This document shows positions 3,262-37,130 of a stretch of DNA of 64,000 nucleotides, piece after piece. The notes under the pieces are model-generated. The model saw nothing but the letters and a program-made list of their open reading frames with translations. It was not told the DNA's origin and did no database searches. Both the position numbers and the translations under genes were made by a program. How positions within the stretch are numbered: the first letter of the stretch is position 1; each line of letters opens with the position of its first letter. The stretch is from Ktedonobacteria bacterium brp13 (lineage in GTDB: Bacteria > Chloroflexota > Ktedonobacteria > Ktedonobacterales > Ktedonobacteraceae), in contig AP024096.1 of assembly GCA_015099395.1 (NCBI GenBank), forward strand, positions 1,550,001 to 1,614,000, written 5' to 3'.

Positions 3262-4143
3262 ATGAACATTGGTATTGGTCTGCCAGCGACCATTCCTGGG
3301 GTCAAGGGAGAGTTGATTCTGGATTGGGCGAGGCAGGCAGACAGCGCAGCTTTTTCGAGCCTGGGAGTGATCGACCGGGTCGTGTACCAGAATTATGAGC
3401 CACTGATGACGCTGGCGGCGGTCGCGAGTGTGACGAAGCGTCTTCGTTTAATGACTGCGGTGCTACTCGCGCCGCTGCGCAGGACGGCTCTTCTTGCCAA
3501 GCAGGCCGCCAGCCTGGACGCGCTCTCCAACGGTCGGCTGACGCTCGGCCTGGGCGTTGGCGTGCGCGAGGATGATTTCCTGGCGGTGGAGGCCTCCTTT
3601 CGCGATCGTGGCAAGCGCTTCGATCAGCAGCTCGCGCTGATGACCCAGATCTGGTCTGGACAGCCAGTCAGTGGGACGATTGGAGAGGTCGGCCCGGTGC
3701 CCGTTCAACCAGGCGGGCCGGAGCTGCTGATTGGGGGGTACTCACCGAAAGCGAGAGAGCGGATCGCTCGTTGGTGCAACGGAGCACTTGTCGGTGTAGG
3801 CGGTGGTGGCCCAGAGATGGTGCGCCAGTCCCTGGAGATGACCAGAAAGGTCTGGCAGGAGGCTGGCAGGACTGGCAAGCCGCGCCTGGTCGTGACCTCG
3901 TACTATGCTTTGGGCCCCAACGTGGCTGACTGGGTGAACCGATTCGTGCGGGACTTCTACGCGTTCTTAGGACCAGCGGCGACACAGGTAGCTGCCGGAG
4001 TGTGTACCACGCCAGAAGCGCTGCGTGGCCTTGTCCAGGAGTTTGCGGACATGGGCGTGGACGAGCTGCTGCTGTGGCCGTGCATCCCCGAACTGGATCA
4101 GATCAGCCGTTTGAAAGACGCGATCTCAAAAGTGCCTCACTAA
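3262..4143 (+). CDS. LLM-class flavin-dependent oxidoreductase
   Basis: This is a luciferase-like monooxygenase-family enzyme, cytosolic, expected to use reduced FMN or coenzyme F420 to oxidise or reduce a small organic substrate; the substrate is unknown. The 293-residue protein starts MNIGIGLPATIPG. It contains the family's typical core strand-helix segment LDALSNGRLTLGLGVGVRED (residues about 84-103) and a C-terminal segment ending in DELLLWPCIPELDQ. The start is supported by AAAGGGTG about eight bases upstream. It stands alone between mobile-element remnants. A second LLM enzyme at 44796-45722 belongs to a different subgroup. Confidence 0.88.
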   Translation: MNIGIGLPATIPGVKGELILDWARQADSAAFSSLGVIDRVVYQNYEPLMTLAAVASVTKRLRLMTAVLLAPLRRTALLAKQAASLDALSNGRLTLGLGVGVREDDFLAVEASFRDRGKRFDQQLALMTQIWSGQPVSGTIGEVGPVPVQPGGPELLIGGYSPKARERIARWCNGALVGVGGGGPEMVRQSLEMTRKVWQEAGRTGKPRLVVTSYYALGPNVADWVNRFVRDFYAFLGPAATQVAAGVCTTPEALRGLVQEFADMGVDELLLWPCIPELDQISRLKDAISKVPH

Positions 4144-23976: not shown

Positions 23977-24090
23977 CATGTCCACTTTTGGTGAAAAGGT
24001 AAATTGATGAGTTATTTCGATCTGGTTAACACGCACGAAGTTTGAGGTAGATCAAACCAATAAGCTCATCTATCCCCAAAAGTGGACATG
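23977..24090. mobile_element. 114-bp MITE with CATGTCCACTTTTGG ends, copy B (inverted)
   Basis: This is the inverted counterpart of 22910-23023, differing only at a few positions. Its last bases (ATG) coincide with the tip of the Tn7-like left end, so it either inserted at the very tip of that transposon or abuts it by chance. Confidence 0.75.
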
Positions 24091-24097
24091 CAGATTC

Positions 24098-24136
24098 AAC
24101 ATGAGTGTGGCCGTTTGACCAACATGAGTGTGGCCG
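24098..24136 (+). promoter_or_regulatory. Left-end transposase binding repeats (putative TnsB sites)
   Basis: Two direct copies of AACATGAGTGTGGCCG begin at 24098 and 24121, a 23-bp period. They match repeats in inverse orientation at 29395-29410 and at 29418 onward. Repeated sites inside the ends are a hallmark of Tn7-like elements, where TnsB binds. Confidence 0.7.
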
Positions 24137-24142
24137 CACATC

Positions 24143-29429: not shown

Positions 29430-29561
29430 GGCTCTCCGTCACATTTGGTGAAGGATGAGCTTACCACGGGCATTCCCTTTTTTGCAATTCGCTCCTGAAG
29501 CCATATAAGGTTTTCCCGATTTTGTTATTGCAGAACTTATCACCAAACCTGACGGAGAGCC
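29430..29561. mobile_element. 132-bp MITE inserted in the Tn7-like right end
   Basis: The ends GGCTCTCCGTCACATTTGGTG and its imperfect complement (tips GGCTCTCCGTCA identical) are flanked by ACACTCA at 29423-29429 and 29562-29568, a 7-bp (possibly 8-bp) target duplication. It therefore inserted after the Tn7-like element and may disable its right end. Confidence 0.8.
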
Positions 29562-29845
29562 ACACTCATGTTGAATCTGCATTTCGCCAGTGGTATCACT
29601 TTTGAGCCAGATCCAAGTATTTCGACAAACCACACCTGGTCCATCCTTGATTGGAAGACCATCTATCTTGTTCCGATACTTAATTGACGTTAAGTTCTCC
29701 TGATGTCATTATTGGCCTAGAAATTATTGAAGCTTGATAAATTATCTGTTTAATCATACTGCTTTATATGTATGTTTTACCGCTATCCCTTAAACCACTT
29801 TTCCGTATGGTCGGCGACGAGGTCGCCCTCGCCACCGCCAATCCC

Positions 29846-29880
29846 AAACCGTGCATAATACTTTCGCATTACACGGCTTT
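29846..29880 (-). ncRNA. Domain V of group II intron A
   Basis: The minus-strand sequence begins AAAGCCGTGTAATGCGAAAG and closes with TGCACGGTTT. It has the AGC-type catalytic triad region and GAAA tetraloop expected of domain V. Confidence 0.85.
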
Positions 29881-29891
29881 TCAGTGTATGG

Positions 29892-30791
29892 TCATTTGAT
29901 ATTGATACCTGCGCTGGCGAGTTTGTCGAGCTTTTCGGCATCTACAAACTTGGCATGGCGCTCATCGTGGCAATGGCGATGAAGGAGCATCTTGTTACTC
30001 AGGTCGTTGTTGTTTCGGTTCCGATCAATATGATCGACTTCCAAGATATCCTCATCTTTGAAGTGCAGTTCACACCAGCGACATTTTCCCTGTTGCTTTT
30101 GTAGAAGTTGTGCCTTTGTCTCATGCATCATTGGATGTTTCTTCAGACGTTGACTCCAGTACAGCAGCTTACCATCGTATGGACTCGCCGTTCCCTTTAC
30201 CTTGCTATACCTCTGAATAGATGTTTTACTGTGCATTCTCATTTCTACACCTTTAGGTGTCACAAACACCCACTTTCGTTTTTCCACTTGATGCCAGTAT
30301 TTCTTCACCACCCATTGGCTTCCTTTGTTGGGGTGTCTGGCCTTTGCCCAACTCATGAGTTGTTCCCACAGGATCGTGTCACATCGTTTGAAGACCGCTG
30401 ATGCAATCGATGTCTTGTAGTAGGCTGCCCATCCCCAGATGACAGGGTTCAATTCTTTGATCAGTTGTTCTTGCGAAGCTGACCGAAGTGTGCGTAGGTG
30501 TTCTTTGATGACAAGGGTATGTCGCTTTATCGCTTCTTGGCTAGGTCTGATGATGGTTTTGAAGCCTAAGGCATCTCTATTCACCTTTCTTCCTGTATGT
30601 GTTTTCCCTACAGGAAACTGACGAATGGTGAATCCTAAGAAATCAAACCCGACCTGTCCTTGATAGGGGGTGAGGGTATGCGTTATCCGCGTTTTCTTAG
30701 CATTGAGAGAGAGCCCCACGTCCTGTAACCATTGTGTGACTCTGTCCGCTGTTTTCTGTAGCTCTTCTCTATTGGAGTGGAAAATCACGAA
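29892..30791 (-). CDS. ltrA: Intron A reverse transcriptase/maturase, C-terminal exon
   Basis: This is the second part of the intron A encoded protein. It starts directly after intron B with FVIFHSNREELQKTADRV, which continues the YADD-FVIF strand of the polymerase palm. The segment contains the rest of the palm and thumb, the maturase X domain (LNPVIWGWAAYYKTSIAS), and an HNH nuclease with CRWCELHF, LEVDHIDRNRNNND and LLHRHCHDERHA. Joined to 35657-36505 in phase, it gives an uninterrupted frame of about 582 residues. Without splicing of intron B, this part cannot be translated as one protein with the N-terminal half. Confidence 0.85.
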   Translation of the reverse strand, partial: FVIFHSNREELQKTADRVTQWLQDVGLSLNAKKTRITHTLTPYQGQVGFDFLGFTIRQFPVGKTHTGRKVNRDALGFKTIIRPSQEAIKRHTLVIKEHLRTLRSASQEQLIKELNPVIWGWAAYYKTSIASAVFKRCDTILWEQLMSWAKARHPNKGSQWVVKKYWHQVEKRKWVFVTPKGVEMRMHSKTSIQRYSKVKGTASPYDGKLLYWSQRLKKHPMMHETKAQLLQKQQGKCRWCELHFKDEDILEVDHIDRNRNNNDLSNKMLLHRHCHDERHAKFVDAEKLDKLASAGINIK

Positions 30792-30850
30792 GTCGGGTAG
30801 GCCGCAGGCGAGGTACTGTGTGCGCAGCCCTTTTCCCCCGGCCCCCCGCC

Positions 30851-30885
30851 GAACCACGCATGCCCGTTTCCGTAGCACGTGGCTC
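30851..30885 (-). ncRNA. Domain V of group II intron B
   Basis: The minus strand begins GAGCCACGTGCTACGGAAAC and ends GCATGCGTGGTTC, a domain V hairpin with GAAA loop. Its sequence differs from A and C, so B belongs to a separate lineage. Confidence 0.85.
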
Positions 30886-30895
30886 TCCAGTGTTT

Positions 30896-31776
30896 TCATG
30901 TCCCTGTCCGGTATCCGCTAAAGCTCCCAGCATGAATGTCATCATGGCAGGAACGACAAACGATTAACGTTTTGCGTCGTCGTGCCGCCATAATATACAT
31001 CCATCGTGGACGCTCCCTCTGTCCTTTCTGTTGGAGATCCTTCAAAGCTCGAATATGGTGGACTTCCACCTGTTCGTGCGATCCGCAGAGTTCGCAGGTG
31101 TCTGCGAGTAGCCGTTTTTCTAGCTCTGATCGATCTCCCCAGATCGGGGCGATGGTGTCGGCGAGAATTGCTTTCGTGTTTCGGGCAAGCGAAATGCCCC
31201 CCCAATGGGCTGTCAGTGGCCGTTTCCCTTCCCGTTCTACTGTCACCTGAAGGACCTTTCGTGGTCCATCAACTGTTTCCATCATGGTTTCGTAGCGGTC
31301 ATAGATCTGAGAAACCGTGATGCGAAGTTTCTCAGCGAGCGTGGCCACTAATGAGCGCTCCATCACCCATTTGAGCCGATTGAGTTGGTAACGGTTGACT
31401 GCCAGTTGGTAATATTGCGCCAGTCCCCGGTATTCCTGTTGATATTGAGCGATGATACTGTAGCAAGTATCTTCGCTCCGTTCCTTTCGGGCCACAGGTT
31501 TGCCGTGGCGACGAAACTGCTGGCTTTTCGCTTGTATGACCTGCGCAGGCACTTTCAGTCCAATTTGTCCATTGATACTACGATGCCTATGCCGGTCATG
31601 CTTGCGATTGTTGTTGAGAACAACGATGTCGTAACCGAGAAATTTTGCCGGATTGCTCCGTGCATGAGTAATGAGCGTCTTTTCCTCGGAAAGCGTCAGA
31701 TGAAGTCTTTCCTTGAGGAATACTCCTACTTGGTGTTTGATTTCTTCGGCTTCTTTACGTGGTCCACTAAAACCAA
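30896..31776 (-). CDS. ltrA: Intron B reverse transcriptase/maturase, C-terminal exon
   Basis: This is the second part of the intron B protein, resuming directly after intron C as GFSGPRKEAEEIKHQVGVFL. It includes the thumb (LSEEKTLITHARSNPAKFLG), the maturase region (YSIIAQYQQEYRGLAQYYQL), and a C-terminal zinc/HNH-like region (CELCGSHEQVEVHHIRALKD with CRSCHDDIHAG). Joined with 34229-35138 across the phase-1 junction (ATT codon), the frame is open for about 596 residues and reads YADDWLIGFSGPRKEAEE. It is therefore intact but dependent on splicing of intron C. Confidence 0.85.
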
Positions 31777-31817
31777 GTCGGGTAGCCAGAGGACATTGCT
31801 GTCCCCCGGCCCCCTGA

Positions 31818-31851
31818 GAACCGTGCGTGCGCCTCTCAACGCACACGGCTC
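31818..31851 (-). ncRNA. Domain V of group II intron C
   Basis: The minus strand begins GAGCCGTGTGCGTTGAGAGG and ends CGCACGCACGGTTC, a typical 34-base domain V hairpin. The domain VI stem and the 3' splice site follow within 45 bases. Confidence 0.9.
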
Positions 31852-31858
31852 AAGCACA

Positions 31859-33634
31859 TCACGTACAGCACTGCTTCTCTTCCTCTCTGCGCTTTGTGTA
31901 TCGAGCGGCTTTGCGTTTTGTCGCCAGCGGGTCACGGTTGTTGAACTCCTGGCAATCGCTCAGTGCTCGTTTCGACGCGGCGTGAATATGCTGATGGCAG
32001 AGCAAATGAACCAGAACAAGATTACTGTAGACATTCTTTCCCCCATCGGCGCGGGCATGGAGGTGATGGATCTGGAGTTCTTCATCCTTGAAGAGGGACT
32101 CTCCGCATTGTGGACATCGACCATGTTGCCTTTTGACGAGCTTTTGTTTGGAGAAGGTCAGGTCCTTGGCTTTCGCCGCCTGCCGTTCCATCCAGTAACT
32201 CCTCAGGCGGGGATCATCGGGTGAGGATGTCCCTTTGACCAGCGTATGTCGTTCAATGGGGAACCAACTGAATTTGAGCAGATACGCCCCGGTTTGTTTG
32301 TCACCAAACACCCAGGGATCGTTCCGTTCGAGATGCAATCGGCCCCAATAGTGTTGATGCCGCCAGTCTTTGGCCTTTTTGGGGTGTGCGCGCCTGGTGT
32401 ACCGATCTTCTTTGTAGAACATCCAGCAGTCCAAGCCGCTAAAGATTTCTTTGGCTACCGCCGTGCGAAAGTAGTTCGCCCATCCCCGAATAACCGGGTT
32501 GAATTGCCCCAGGACGGTTTGGACGTTTGTTCCGTGGGCTTTTTTCCACAAAACTTTGAGCTTCGTTCGCACTTCCTGTACTGACTCTTTGCTGGGTTTA
32601 ATGAGGAGTTTCCATCCTGTGCGTGAGGTTTTCGGCGCGGGGTAATGCCGAATATTGAAACCAAGAAAGTCAAACCCTTCAGTCAGGTGGACAATCCGCG
32701 TCTTTTCCTCCGAGAGGGTCAGACCGCGCTCTCTCAACCATTCCGTCAGGATGCCTTGCACTCGCTCGGCATCTTCCCTGGTTTCACAAAAGCATACGAA
32801 GTCGTCTGCATACCTCACGACTGCCCGTTTGCCAGTAAGTTGGCCTCGGGAGTCATATTTGACCCCAATGGCCTCTTCCATGCCGTGTAGGGCAATATTG
32901 GCCAATAAGGGCGACACGACGCCGCCCTGGGGCGTTCCTTGCTCTGTTGCGTAGAAGACCTCTTTTTCGACATAACCTGCTTTGAGCCATTGCTTGATGA
33001 GTTCCATCCCTGGAACCGGACCAATGGCCCGGAGCAAGTGTTCATGTGAGATGTGGTCGAAGGCGCCGCGTATATCTGCGTCCAAGACCCATTTCTTGGT
33101 CTTGTTTGGTCGAGCCAATCCGAAGATTTTCTCGATCGCATCATGTCCACTGCGCCCTGGTCGAAATCCGTAGCTTGTGCCCTCGAACTTGGCTTCCCAG
33201 AAAGGTTCCAGGGCGTTCTTGACCATTGCCTGAAGGCAGCGATCCTGAATGACGGGGATTCCGAGCGGCCTTAACTTGTTGTTGGCTTTGGGGATGTAAA
33301 CCCTTTTTGCTGGTTTGGCTTTCCAGAGGGTGTAGTGGGCGAGGGTATCGACCATTCTTCCTCTGGCGGCTGGTGTTTTGATAACCAGTTTATCCACCCC
33401 GGGCGTGTTTTTCCCAGCGTTGATCTGTGCTACTCGCCGGACACTCACCAGCCGGTTGGAGTAGCTTTTCAGCATGAGTTTTTGAAGCGAGCGCACCCGT
33501 TTCCGGTTGCCCTCTTGTGCTGCCCGAAAGATGCGGTGTCTCAGGTTACGAACAGTCCGATTGGCTTTACGCCAGTTGATCGCGTTCCAGTCGGTCTGCT
33601 TCTCGGTTCCGTTTGCAAAGCGTGTGGCTTGCAT
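31859..33634 (-). CDS. ltrA: Intron C reverse transcriptase/maturase with HNH endonuclease
   Basis: This is an intact intron-encoded protein of about 591 residues that should aid splicing of intron C and its retrohoming. In order it shows an N-terminal RT0 region (RTVRNLRHRIFRAAQEGNRK), fingers (GVDK, IPVIQDRCLQAMVKNALEP), GTSYGFRPGRSGHDA, the first palm Asp in VLDADIRGAFDHI, TPQGGVVSPLLANI, the second palm Asps in VRYADDFVCF, the maturase X domain (FNPVIRGWANYFRTAVAK) and an HNH nuclease (CPQCGESLF, IHHLHARADGG, LLCHQHIHA). I chose MQATRFANG, with AAGGG upstream, over an earlier ATG. Confidence 0.92.
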   Translation of the reverse strand: MQATRFANGTEKQTDWNAINWRKANRTVRNLRHRIFRAAQEGNRKRVRSLQKLMLKSYSNRLVSVRRVAQINAGKNTPGVDKLVIKTPAARGRMVDTLAHYTLWKAKPAKRVYIPKANNKLRPLGIPVIQDRCLQAMVKNALEPFWEAKFEGTSYGFRPGRSGHDAIEKIFGLARPNKTKKWVLDADIRGAFDHISHEHLLRAIGPVPGMELIKQWLKAGYVEKEVFYATEQGTPQGGVVSPLLANIALHGMEEAIGVKYDSRGQLTGKRAVVRYADDFVCFCETREDAERVQGILTEWLRERGLTLSEEKTRIVHLTEGFDFLGFNIRHYPAPKTSRTGWKLLIKPSKESVQEVRTKLKVLWKKAHGTNVQTVLGQFNPVIRGWANYFRTAVAKEIFSGLDCWMFYKEDRYTRRAHPKKAKDWRHQHYWGRLHLERNDPWVFGDKQTGAYLLKFSWFPIERHTLVKGTSSPDDPRLRSYWMERQAAKAKDLTFSKQKLVKRQHGRCPQCGESLFKDEELQIHHLHARADGGKNVYSNLVLVHLLCHQHIHAASKRALSDCQEFNNRDPLATKRKAARYTKRREEEKQCCT

Positions 33635-34228
33635 CGAACTTTTCCCTTGATAAATAGCCTTTACATCGTTCTTTGGGTAATGCACCAGGATCACGTCAGC
33701 CGCCTTTCGGCGTGGGTATCTCCGTTTCCGGCCCTATCTGCCCAGTTATGAATTCCTGTTGCCTTTCGGCTGGCAGCATTCGCTTTTTGATCCCTCCCTT
33801 TCCCACTGAAGAGTTCGGCTTTCCTTGCGGTTGGCTTACTCAGAGCATCGACCATCTCTGAGACTTCATTGGGGTTATCCTGTTTCGCATGTGTGAGATA
33901 CAACTGGTGAGGAGTGCCTTCTTTACTGCGGGGACTGGGTATCCATTCCTGGGATGGCTTAGCCCACAGGGACCGTTGTCCCATTCATCATCGTTTTAGC
34001 CGTTTCGATGACCGCGACGTCACGCAGCCTCATCGAAGGTTCATTTGCATTCATCCTTCCAGTTTTCCCCTTGCCCGGTTGCCTCATTCGGCTCGAAGCT
34101 TCCTTGGACGTTACCCCTCGCTTTCCACCTCACCGTTGCCAGTGACGCAGAGAGGGATTGGAGACAGCCTTGGATACTAGGCTGGGAGCGCCTTTGCTCC
34201 ACTCAACACAAGCGACTTCAGGTCGCAC

Positions 34229-35138
34229 TCAGCCAGTCATCGGCATAGCGGAGGTACCGCATCCGTCTGTATCCTGGGTCAGTTGGATCGAGGGAGGGCA
34301 GACACTGCATCTGATGACGCAGTGTTTCCGCTTCTTCTCGTTTTCCTGTCTTTCGCAGATCCAACGCGCGTCTTTGGAGTGCTCCGTATGGGGGATTGAC
34401 CCGTCTTCGCTCTCCGCGCGTGTAGGCTGGAGCAAGAGTCGTTTCAACAAATTTGTCCAATTTATCCAGATAGATATTGGCGAGCAGCGGGCTCAAAATG
34501 CCCCCTTGGGGGCTGCCACTGTACGTGGCATGATAGCGCCACTCTTCCAGATATCCAGCTTTGAGGAGTCCTTCGATGAGTCGAAGAAATCGACCATCGT
34601 GGATGTTCTCGCTCAAGATTGACAGCAAGACCGAATGGTCGAGCGCGTCGAAGCATTGGGCGATATCTCCCTCCACCATCCACTTTGTGCCTATCCACGT
34701 GTGGTAGATCTCCGAGAGCGCGGTGTGGCATCCTCGGCCTGGTCGAAACCCATGTGAACTGGGACTGAATTGCGGCTCGTAGTATGCAGACAAGATGAGT
34801 CGCATGACTTCTTGCAGCAATTTATTCGACCAAGAAGGCAGTCCGAGCGGGCGTTTCTTCTTCGAGTGACGTTTCTCGATGTAGATGCGTCGCACTGGTG
34901 TCCAGTGATAGCGCTCATATCGCAGTGCTTCAATGATCGCTGCGATTTTGGACATGGACATACCATCCACCGTTTCTTCCGTTGAGCCTGGTGTTAATGC
35001 ACCGTTGTTTCGATAGATTTTCCCATACGCTTTGAGGTACAAAGCCGGATTGAACAGTAATCGATAGACTCGTTCCAGTGGCAATCCTCGTTTGCCGCGT
35101 TCATGGATGATACTTAACACCTGATCGGCTGTTCGCAT
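34229..35138 (-). CDS. ltrA: Intron B reverse transcriptase, N-terminal exon
   Basis: This is the first part of the intron B protein. It starts at MRTADQVLSIIHERGKRGLP and carries finger and palm motifs GKIYRNNGALTPGS, KKRPLGLPSWSNKLLQEVMR, SSHGFRPGRGCHTALSEI, VEGDIAQCFDALDHSVLL (first catalytic Asp), SGSPQGGILSPLLANI and LRYADDWL. The frame then runs into intron C and stops three codons later. This RT differs clearly from those of A and C (for example the 'MRYLRYADDW' palm and Pro-rich finger), so the three introns are not recent copies of one another. Confidence 0.87.
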
Positions 35139-35656
35139 CTCGCGTACCTTTCTTTCTGTAAGTATCGAAAACACCTACCATCCTTCGCCATGTACAAGGT
35201 TACTTGTTCCCTTGCGCGGACTACTACGATGGTTCCGTGACCTTACCGCTCGCGCGGTTTAGGCCATCCCAAGTTCCCGTGTGGCTAGACGTATCGAGCC
35301 TGACGTAGGTGCCGTGTTCGCTCCCTTGAGTGAAGTCATTCTTCACCGCTCATCCTCTGGAGGGTTCAGGTGCCGACGATTTTGACACCCTATGAGGACG
35401 ATCTCGCAACAGACGCTGTAATCGAGAGATGTACGCTTTCATCGCTGGAAGCTACGATTCAGCCAGTGTAGGTTTCACCGTTCAGGCGGGTCTTGCAGAA
35501 CAAGGCCTTTAGCGTCTTCTTTGCCTTTTCCGCTTTCTCAACATGCTCATTTCCCCTTCAGCTTTCACATCCAGGTAGGTTGAGTAACCCAGAAGTCTTT
35601 TCCTCCAAACTTCTCCTCTCTGTGAGAGGGATCTAACCACCGGTTAAGTGGCGCAC

Positions 35657-36505
35657 GTCATCAGCGTACCGAATGAGCAGCGGTTTTTCTACCGAATGAC
35701 TCTTCGAGTACCCTTCGACGATGAGATGCTCCATTCCGTGAAGAGCTACATTCATGAGTAATGGTGAAATCACTCCTCCTTGCGGTGTTCCCACCTTTGT
35801 TGGGGAAAAAATACCATCATCCATGACCCCTGCTTTTAGCCAAGCTTTGATGGCTTGTCTGAGGAGAGGATACGTTTGTAGCTTGTTAAGTAACACTTCC
35901 TGGTTAATGTTGTCGAAGGCTCCTTTTACGTCGGCATCATACACATATTTTGGCTTGCTTCTGATGGCATTGAAGATCGCTTCTCTTGCATCATGGCAGG
36001 AGCGGGCAGGACGAAAACCATAACTATTTGCCTCAAACCGTGCTTCCCATTCTGGCTCTAGCGCCATTTTTGCCAGAGCTTGCTTGCACCGCTCGACCAT
36101 CGGTGGAATCCCTAAAGGACGTTGCTCGGTTTTTCCTGGCTTCGGTATCCAGACACGTCGTACGGGCTGAGGAGTCTGCTGTTTCCAGTGCTTTGGATGT
36201 ATCTGGCTTGCCATGACAAGCCGCTCTTGGGGTTTGACAGCTTTCACCCCATCTATTCCTGCGGTTTTCTTGCCCTGATTCTCTTGCGTTACCCGACGGA
36301 CTGCCAGCAATCGTGCTGCTTCTGATTTCATCAGTAACTTTTGAAGCTTTTGAACTGCTCGTGTGTTGCCACGCTGACTGGCTTGATAGATTCGCTTTTG
36401 GATGCGGAAACAGTGTTTCTCTAGCTTGCGCCAGGGAAGTTTGTTCCAAGCCTCACTCTCAGGATCAAGTGGTAACTTGACCTTGGGTGCTTTTCTTTCT
36501 TTCAT
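35657..36505 (-). CDS. ltrA: Intron A reverse transcriptase, N-terminal exon
   Basis: This is the first part of the intron A protein: 283 codons ending precisely on the second Asp of YADD. It begins MKERKAPKVKLPLDPESEAW and contains GKKTAGIDGVKAV, EQRPLGIPPMVERCKQALAK, NSYGFRPARSCHDAREAIF, VYDADVKGAFDNI (first catalytic Asp), GTPQGGVISPLLMNV and LLIRYADD. The unspliced transcript would add only VRHLTGG before a stop, yielding a truncated protein with an incomplete palm and no maturase domain. Confidence 0.87.
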
Positions 36506-37130
36506 CTGACTTGTTCACTACCTTCCATACAGCAGTGCCTCCGTCTGCTTGCGCTTCTGAGGCAATCGTTCCACAGAGTGCATGCGGCCTGGTCGCCTGC
36601 TCATTGTATCGACCATCAATGAGAGCAGTTCTGTAGTTATCCCGTTCCAATGTCTGTTTTGCGCTACCTTAGATTGGGTGCTGTCCGCCGGAGACCTTCC
36701 TGAATGGGTTGAGCAGAAGGAACAAATCTGTTCACAGTCGTGCTTCAGCGATACGCCTCAGCACTGCGGTCTCATTACCGTTTTGGTCAAGCCTTTTATC
36801 CTGCGTCGGCTTGGTGTGCATGACGATGGGTCCATCGCACCTTCGACCGCTAACCTTGGTAGGTTAGTAACTCATCATAGTAGCTGGCTAGCAGCGTTCT
36901 CATATCAGGATTATGGTGAGGCCGCATTCTCTCCCGCTTCACGGATTGACGACCAATTTCTACCGTGGGGAGAGTGCTGTCTGCTTCCATCTCGCAGGGT
37001 GGGAATTTCGCCCACCATCAGATCATCAGTTGTCAAATTTCTTTGCCACGCATCCCCCGTGTTGCCACGGTCTCGCGTGAACGGGTCGCACTGTTCCATT
37101 ACACCACAGACCCCTTACTCTAAGGGCAGA

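Follow-up and report, generated by a model that had tools for sequence, protein, structure and literature searches.

Group II introns nested at the YADD codons of other introns' reverse transcriptases in a Ktedonobacteria genome

A nest of three group II introns

The stretch of DNA analyzed here (the window) comprises 64,000 nucleotides (nt) of the genome of Ktedonobacteria bacterium brp13 (contig AP024096.1, positions 1,550,001 to 1,614,000) and carries on its minus strand a nest of three group II introns, in which intron C lies within intron B and intron B within intron A. We write this arrangement A{B{C}}, with P{Q} denoting intron Q inside intron P. Labels of the form G0xx stand for genomes (G000 being that of brp13) and Lxxx for loci, and the group labels ML and CL are our own, taken from the nearest solved relatives of each reverse transcriptase (RT). 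The features of the nest, in window positions, are as follows.

37091-29805, minus strand: intron A (outermost), 7287 nt, or 2422 nt without B; CL-like RT; a copy without B lies at L052
35656-30792, minus strand: intron B (middle), 4865 nt, or 2413 nt without C; LtrA-like (ML) RT; behind the YADD codons of RT A
34228-31777, minus strand: intron C (innermost), 2452 nt; CL-like RT; at YADDWL plus one base of RT B
35657-36514, minus strand: open reading frame (ORF), RT A piece 1, up to YADD
29892-30791, minus strand: ORF, RT A piece 2, from FVIF to the stop
34229-35174, minus strand: ORF, RT B piece 1, up to YADDWL plus one base
30896-31776, minus strand: ORF, RT B piece 2, with an HNH-like end (domains seen on the G034 homologue)
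31859-33733, minus strand: RT C frame, uninterrupted, with RVT_N, RVT_1, GIIM and HNH domains
29805-29881, minus strand: domain V/VI of A (RF00029, 53.3 bits)
30792-30887, minus strand: domain V/VI of B (RF00029, 47.3 bits); the site of a further intron, D, behind base 30845, is empty here and occupied at L032 and L033
31777-31853, minus strand: domain V/VI of C (RF00029, 60.6 bits)

Intron A begins with GTGCGACCC and ends with ACCATAC. Intron B begins with GTGCGCC directly after TAC GCT GAT GAC, the YADD codons of RT A, and ends with CTACCCGAC, after which RT A continues with TTC GTG ATT TTC (FVIF). Intron C begins with GTGCGACC after TAT GCC GAT GAC TGG CTG A of RT B (YADDWL plus one base) and ends with CTACCCGAC, followed by TTGGTTTTAGTGG of RT B, where the host resumes with TTGG. 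The initial annotation of this locus, which was made from the sequence alone, had given the same ends for B and the same start for C, and had left out the two T at the junction behind C. All three introns have the GTGCG...AC ends of group II introns (5′ GUGYG, 3′ AY), and a covariance search recovered in each of them the domain V hairpin that had been noted by eye, with RF00029 matches that all exceed the gathering score of 40 and stop exactly at the intron's 3′ end.

At these exact splice sites the interrupted frames join, leaving 585 codons for RT A and 608 for RT B (previously put at about 582 and 596), beside 624 for RT C, all of these being open stretches whose start codons are not fixed. 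Without splicing, the two host frames stop just past the active site, at YADDVRHLTGG in RT A and YADDWLSAT in RT B. Of the earlier proposal that inserted introns switch off the mobility of their hosts, only the truncated frames in the unspliced sequence are seen directly.

The proposal that the three introns come from different lineages is supported. LtrA matched the B homologue of a related genome, G034, over nearly its whole length (1e-118), and that homologue carries Intron_maturas2 and an AI2M-like HNH domain. For RT C, and for RT A as found at L052, the best match was the 6me0 maturase; both of these RTs carry RVT_N and GIIM, and they are 43% identical to each other. With LtrA and 6me0 as nearest relatives, B is assigned to another lineage than A and C, so that an LtrA-like intron is sandwiched between two CL-like ones. 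C, D and A at L052 all exceeded the TIGR04416 cut-off of 300, which the B homologue did not reach at 266.9, yet its match to LtrA spans the length. By TIGR04416, LtrA and the Pfam RT and maturase domains, A, B, C and D all encode an RT/maturase.

Consensus folds of the 5′ regions contained 84 pairs for 12 ML introns and 88 for 11 CL introns, of which 73 and 63, respectively, were changed on both sides (the column-shuffle control being a generous one). RF02012, which covers domains I to IV, matched C at 34074-34185 and also matched D homologues. Structured domains I to IV are thus indicated by covarying folds for the aligned ML and CL introns and by RF02012 for C and the D homologues.

The initial annotation had placed each intron in the YADD region of a host RT. 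This holds for B and C; for A, no gene was identifiable in the flanking sequence. The end of the 5′ exon of A, GGTGTAATGGAACA, resembled the 5′ part of a tRNA, and we rejected a tRNA gene as the exon when ARAGORN found none in either the window or the joined exons. The 132 nt just 3′ of A (window 29430-29561) recur at 100% identity at L049:18238-18369, and a weaker copy lies near window 24061-24138.

Copies and empty sites in the same genome

The brp13 genome is one 8.88-Mb contig. A domain-V search of it, in which 150 of 615 first-look candidates were scored, gave at least 46 matches (more may exist), 17 of which were assigned to nested introns, as listed here.

Window: A{B{C}}, 3 matches
L031: X{B{C}}, 3 matches
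L032: X{B{C′,D}}, 4 matches
L033: Y{B{C′,D}}, 4 matches
L034: Z{C}, 2 matches
L049: V inside U, 1 match (the split U yields none)

Intron B was found in exactly four copies in this genome (all 34 candidates were scored), in the hosts A, X, X and Y, each time behind YADD. Together with the four in G034, all eight full-length B copies lie directly behind the YADD codons of a host RT, in six distinct hosts, and every one of the host frames is open after removal of B. The brp13 copies differ by 0–1 bases in the first part of B (B1), the window copy being the one-base outlier, and by 0–4 bases in the second part (B2), where L031 has four differences before the D site and L032 has one behind it. All four carry a C-type intron at YADDWL, which is C in two of them and C′ in the other two, with C′ separated from C by 229 differences in 2452 bases (~9%). 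Intron C itself is identical in three places, the window, L031 and host Z at L034, and in Z all 2452 bases match and the flanks differ, which fixes the ends of C. The RT of Z is 30–45% identical to RT B.

The ends of B are fixed by L052, where A runs colinear through the site without B (99.3% identity before it and 99.6% behind). The inner intron is therefore wholly enclosed and its exact removal restores the outer one, as in a twintron. The match to A at L052 extends only to residue 535 of the 585 of the RT, with an uninterrupted frame and both RT and maturase domains, and no 3′ end of A was found within that locus. An uninterrupted LtrA-like RT, 58% identical to that of B, lies at L047.

One intron thus occurs repeatedly at one site in the ORFs of other introns (B in six hosts, and C in both B and Z), as in the nests of Methanosarcina. 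Independent homing best accounts for the presence of two different inner introns on near-identical outer introns, and of one inner intron on unrelated outer introns. Alternatively, C, C′ and D might have been spread by exchange among the copies of B, through homologous recombination or gene conversion, given that the B copies are near identical and that B{C′,D} of L032 and L033 agree at 3388 of 3389 bases of B2 plus D and show no difference in B1 plus C′, though their hosts X and Y differ. As a replacement for homing we judge this quite improbable: C lies in Z without B flanks, the B copies in A, X and Y have no shared host flanks long enough past the YADD region, and B and D recur at like sites in other species. 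As an additional process acting on C′ and D, recombination is plausible.

A second alternative is that B and C travel as a composite, B RNA with C in its domain IV retrohoming as a 4.9-kb unit. Such movement has been named as one possibility for twintrons (PMC2882425). B{C} of the window and of L031 are 99.8% identical over 4884 positions in the unrelated hosts A and X, the insertion within the RT frame spares domain V/VI of B, and the single step between these two loci could have been of this kind. As the general route it seems a poor prospect, in view of C′ on a near-identical B, C in Z without B, and B without C in G034.

Repeats of several kb at 100% identity are prone to misassembly, and the nest might in principle be an artefact of that process. 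The single contig, joints that are exact in-frame splice sites, and similar nests with diverged parts in G034 and G032 make this explanation exceedingly unlikely.

The two copies of host X encode identical spliced RTs and have 635 nt of 3′ flank in common (93% identical in the last block); duplication of X{B}, instead of two separate hits, may therefore explain them. By its motif, the sequence in which X lies at L031 and L032 may be an IS630-type transposase gene, which would make the arrangement transposase{X{B{C}}}. For host Y, a piece at L040:7586-7885 (minus strand) is 98.9% identical to the intron and followed directly by the same domain V, and is likely an ORF-deleted derivative of it. 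Elsewhere in the genome, two introns, R and S, share one repeated locus (L036, L037, L045 and L056) that carries both, R only or S only and so provides natural empty sites. A candidate nest in RT W at L049 was rejected: its 1873-nt insert also occurs at L057, and no RT match was found in the insert at either place.

Homologues in related genomes

G032 is Ktedonobacter racemifer (contig NZ_ADVG01000001), and the brp13 genome and G034 belong to the same family; scans of related genomes covered 6 scored candidates per genome, or at most 28. The initial annotation had suggested looking for the introns alone, and both kinds of empty host were found: A without B at L052, and B without C in all four B homologues of G034 (79% identical in nucleotides), each of which lies in the YADD codons of another intron. 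The G034 copies are mutually identical when D is excluded, and sit in three distinct hosts whose spliced frames have 687 codons (L085 and L086, identical), 637 codons (L087) and 663 codons (L088). In K. racemifer, a C homologue lies in YADDFV|IG of a host RT that is 31–48% identical to that of B (L091).

We searched 400 Chloroflexota genomes with the pattern TAYGCNGAYGAYGTGYGNC, which is blind to C-type and D-type sites. It gave 12 matches, as did a reversed-pattern control; eight of the 12 are the B copies of the brp13 genome and G034, and the other four (G281, G313, G318 and G322) had no nearby match to the four RTs used as queries. By this pattern, B-type nests occur in 2 of the 400 genomes.

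The ratio of nonsynonymous to synonymous change (dN/dS) between genera was 0.10 for B (brp13 versus G034), 0.09 for C and 0.08 for D (both versus K. racemifer). For C against C′ it was 0.125. Constraint on the RTs has been maintained in these lineages, a statement about the lineages and not about the window nest itself. Between A and its L052 copy the ratio was 0.46, on only eight changes (five nonsynonymous, three synonymous).

These values bear on the possibility that the nest is a dead pile of introns inserted into one another, with splicing lost and its order irrelevant. A lies outside any identifiable gene, the interrupted host RTs are not made without splicing, the L052 copy of A is truncated, and the few changes between it and A are mostly nonsynonymous. 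The spliced frames, however, are all open, the identity of C in three places points to recent activity, and the between-genus dN/dS values of lineages B, C and D are close to 0.1, although these values are no test of the nest in the window. On balance we think a dead pile unlikely.

Two further C homologues have unusual surroundings. At L078:2694-7131 (L092) of K. racemifer, the RT of a C homologue is split near residue 270–275 by ~2 kb of other sequence, and in G026 a HEARO RNA (L094:5181-5387; RF02033, 123.8 bits) adjoins a C homologue.

Predicted guide loops

Group II introns choose their targets through pairing between exon-binding sites (EBS) in the intron and intron-binding sites (IBS) in the exon. 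The following sites were assigned in the window.

35371-35380, minus strand: predicted EBS1 of B (ATCGTCGGCA), complementary to the ADD codons; pairs with host X at 10 of 10 positions and is mismatched at -1 in host A
34006-34014, minus strand: predicted EBS2 of C (CGGTCATCG), pairing with the DD codons and on into the W codon of RT B
33955-33961, minus strand: candidate EBS1 of C, TAAGCCA against TGGCTGA, 6 of 7, found by eye; the aligned test did not confirm it
36719-36724, minus strand: candidate EBS1 of A, TGTTCC against GGAACA, 6 of 6; alone not above chance

A free scan for EBS helices was weak for most introns, and aligned cross-pairing was used instead. In an alignment of 13 ML introns, the slice taken for EBS1, which was set on B, paired with positions -6 to -1 of the intron's own exon at 75 of 78 positions, against a shuffled mean of 54.1, and none of 20000 shuffles scored as high. 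For the CL introns the slice was set on the L100 loop. In eight aligned D-type introns, EBS2 was fully paired with positions -13 to -9 of the intron's own exon (40 of 40; shuffled mean 27.9) and EBS1 paired at 45 of 48 (shuffled mean 34.6, P 0.0008), so that the predicted loops of D vary together with their target; the D-type IBS2 in the brp13 genome and in K. racemifer is the 3′ strand of domain V. For A, a comparison of EBS1 across the A-like introns gave no clear signal in either direction. EBS/IBS pairing at the intron ends is thus clear in the ML group, B included, and in the D group; A and C, taken alone, did not exceed chance.

In the free scan, B paired above chance in hosts X (P 0.011) and Y (P 0.011) and at L085 (P 0.024). 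Host A has C at -1 and therefore mismatches EBS1 of the brp13 B. In the B of G034, G replaces A at the base facing -1, and three of its four copies have C there.

A lineage inserted at domain V/VI

Two of the four B copies carry a further intron, D.

L032:11367-13770 and L033:9813-12216: intron D, 2404 nt, inserted directly after domain V of B, whose domain VI it splits

The domain V/VI of D matches RF00029 at 44.8 bits, above gathering. Its ends in the brp13 genome are atypical (5′ TTGCG, 3′ GGC); a 5′ U has a precedent in TeI4h (PMC2882425). We inspected the ends of 20 D-like loci. In six of them both ends are visible and the site is behind domain V of another intron (L097 and L107 in the brp13 genome, L098 in K. 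racemifer, and L099, L108 and L113 in G034), the host at L113 being the B homologue of G034. Two more have, judged by eye, a domain-VI-like flank on the 3′ side only (L109 in G031 and L110 in G033). The remainder comprises three at AAYTGG, which we presume to be a site in a TnpB-like gene, three at a repeated site (R), one elsewhere and five unplaced. Rfam places a host domain V above gathering directly before D at L098/L091, L099 and L108/L088; the one at L032 and L033 is sub-gathering at 37.1 bits, and at L113/L087, where Rfam lists none, it is present by identity with B.

In a FastTree phylogeny of 21 RTs, five representatives of these domain-V inserters form one clade (support 0.93). A second lineage comprises two ML introns of G024 (L133 and L147), each of which interrupts the 3′ strand of domain V in a different host; their EBS1, ACCGGA, faces TCCGGT. 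Among introns without an ORF, V lies within domain V of U at L049:6977-7644 (minus strand), and intact copies of U occur at L035 and L051.

Probable origin of the nest and proposed order of splicing

A{B{C}} consists of three nested group II introns, and we consider it probable that B and C each arrived by separate retrohoming, their predicted loops pairing with the YADD codons of the host RT. Directly observed in favor of this are the exact ends, the open spliced frames, a copy of A that lacks B, homologues of B that lack C, two C lineages occupying one site across four near-identical copies of B, and an identical C in an unrelated host. It is established that group II introns home through EBS pairing, followed by reverse splicing and then reverse transcription (PMC2882425); in the present case, loops of the B or C intron RNA would pair with the YADD codons of a host RT, and the later steps would follow. 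The recurrence of these introns at matching sites in brp13 and in relatives makes it likely that they specialize in invading other introns. As no competent intron is expected to lack YADD codons, one aimed at these codons would likely never be without a landing site.

Several points weigh against this account. The splicing of A, B and C is predicted. In its window host, B meets an A–C mismatch at -1, and its best pairing there has P 0.22 in the free scan, which was also at chance for B at L087 (0.69) and L088 (0.42), for C in B (0.15), for A (0.66) and for D (0.14–0.16). In an aligned test that included C introns, the EBS1 slice of C was paired at 1 of 6 positions and that of C_G031 at 3 of 6, and the loop slices were placed after pairing had been seen in one intron. 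C homologues of G031 and G034 (L089, L090 and L096) share a common site that is not YADD, so YADD targeting by C is, on these insertion sites, not universal in its clade. Finally, the C′,D pair common to L032 and L033 could stem from recombination between B copies.

If the nest is spliced, excision of C first would restore RT B, and excision of B next would restore RT A, each step being aided by the maturase from the previous step or by one supplied in trans; an inner intron left in place would cut the host RT short within the active site. The initial annotation had made the order C before B before A obligatory. Such a strict order is plausible, but B and C lie in RT frames and leave domain V/VI of their hosts uncut, so the anatomy in the window does not force it, and neither is a strict dependency forced where a maturase may be supplied in trans, from L052 in the case of A or from L047 in that of B. 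The dependency would be stronger for B: all four B copies carry C or C′, so a full RT B in this genome would need the excision of one or the other. At loci that bear D, which cuts the domain VI of its host, the order should be forced at the RNA level. Lineage D would follow the same strategy aimed at the ribozyme core, and its excision would have to precede that of the host.

The chances seem to us evenly divided that Ktedonobacteria harbor a guild of introns living on other introns, with guides aimed at the two catalytic cores that no competent intron can lose, the YADD codons of the RT (B and C) and domain V of the ribozyme (D, the ML introns of G024, and V). If this is true, its members would be hyperparasites with a nearly escape-proof homing site, as a mutation of the target would cripple the host intron, and those in domain V/VI would make the splicing of their hosts depend on their own excision. 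The single nest thus becomes a testable system, with several lineages that have empty sites, rival inner introns on near-identical outer ones, and predicted guide loops. It would permit direct tests of how a selfish ribozyme comes to use another selfish element as its niche, of whether the mobility of an outer intron is controlled by the one inside it, and of how splicing orders become obligatory.

Relation to known systems

Nested group II introns in Methanosarcina were described by Dai and Zimmerly in 2003; the insertion site there is reportedly YADD. The introns of Methanosarcina acetivorans resemble those described here in their repeated site-specific homing into introns and in the lack of a host gene in the flanks (PMC4424553). 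The initial annotation had called a triple nest unusual; it is not without precedent, given nests of up to five introns in that archaeon (PMC4424553) and the four-intron nests at L032 and L033. Unlike the archaeal case, the present one is bacterial, mixes ML and CL introns, has two inner lineages competing for one site and includes a lineage behind domain V.

In the twintrons of Thermosynechococcus elongatus, as here, the inner introns are identical and the outer ones diverged, a pattern that was read as separate mobility, and separate splicing and mobility were shown in assays; the inner intron there differs in being ORF-less and in its position, which is not YADD but the interval separating two start codons in the outer ORF (PMC2882425). 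The Trichodesmium twintron is likewise bacterial, its two introns are only distantly related and both carry an ORF, and its sequential splicing has been shown, but it is a single nest in a protein gene with the inner intron in host domain I (PMC4649490). Porphyridium plastids share with our loci a single mobile inner intron that has entered two different outer ones; there the outer introns lie in genes, and the excerpted text does not state YADD as the site (PMC4476101). In the psbF twintron of Euglena, the inner intron lies in domain V of the outer one, as V does in U and close to the position of D; it is a chloroplast case, and the excerpt mentions no RT-bearing lineage with a recurring target in domain V/VI (PMC8393795).

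The K. racemifer genome paper reports 34 RT genes in its passages on group II introns, which do not mention nests (PMC3236041). Searches of the open-licence literature, read in excerpt, turned up neither nests in Chloroflexota nor a lineage of RT-bearing bacterial introns that homes to domain V/VI. Nests of introns homing into introns are an already known kind, of which the present ones are a variant, and the targeting of domain V/VI by such a bacterial lineage appears to be new.

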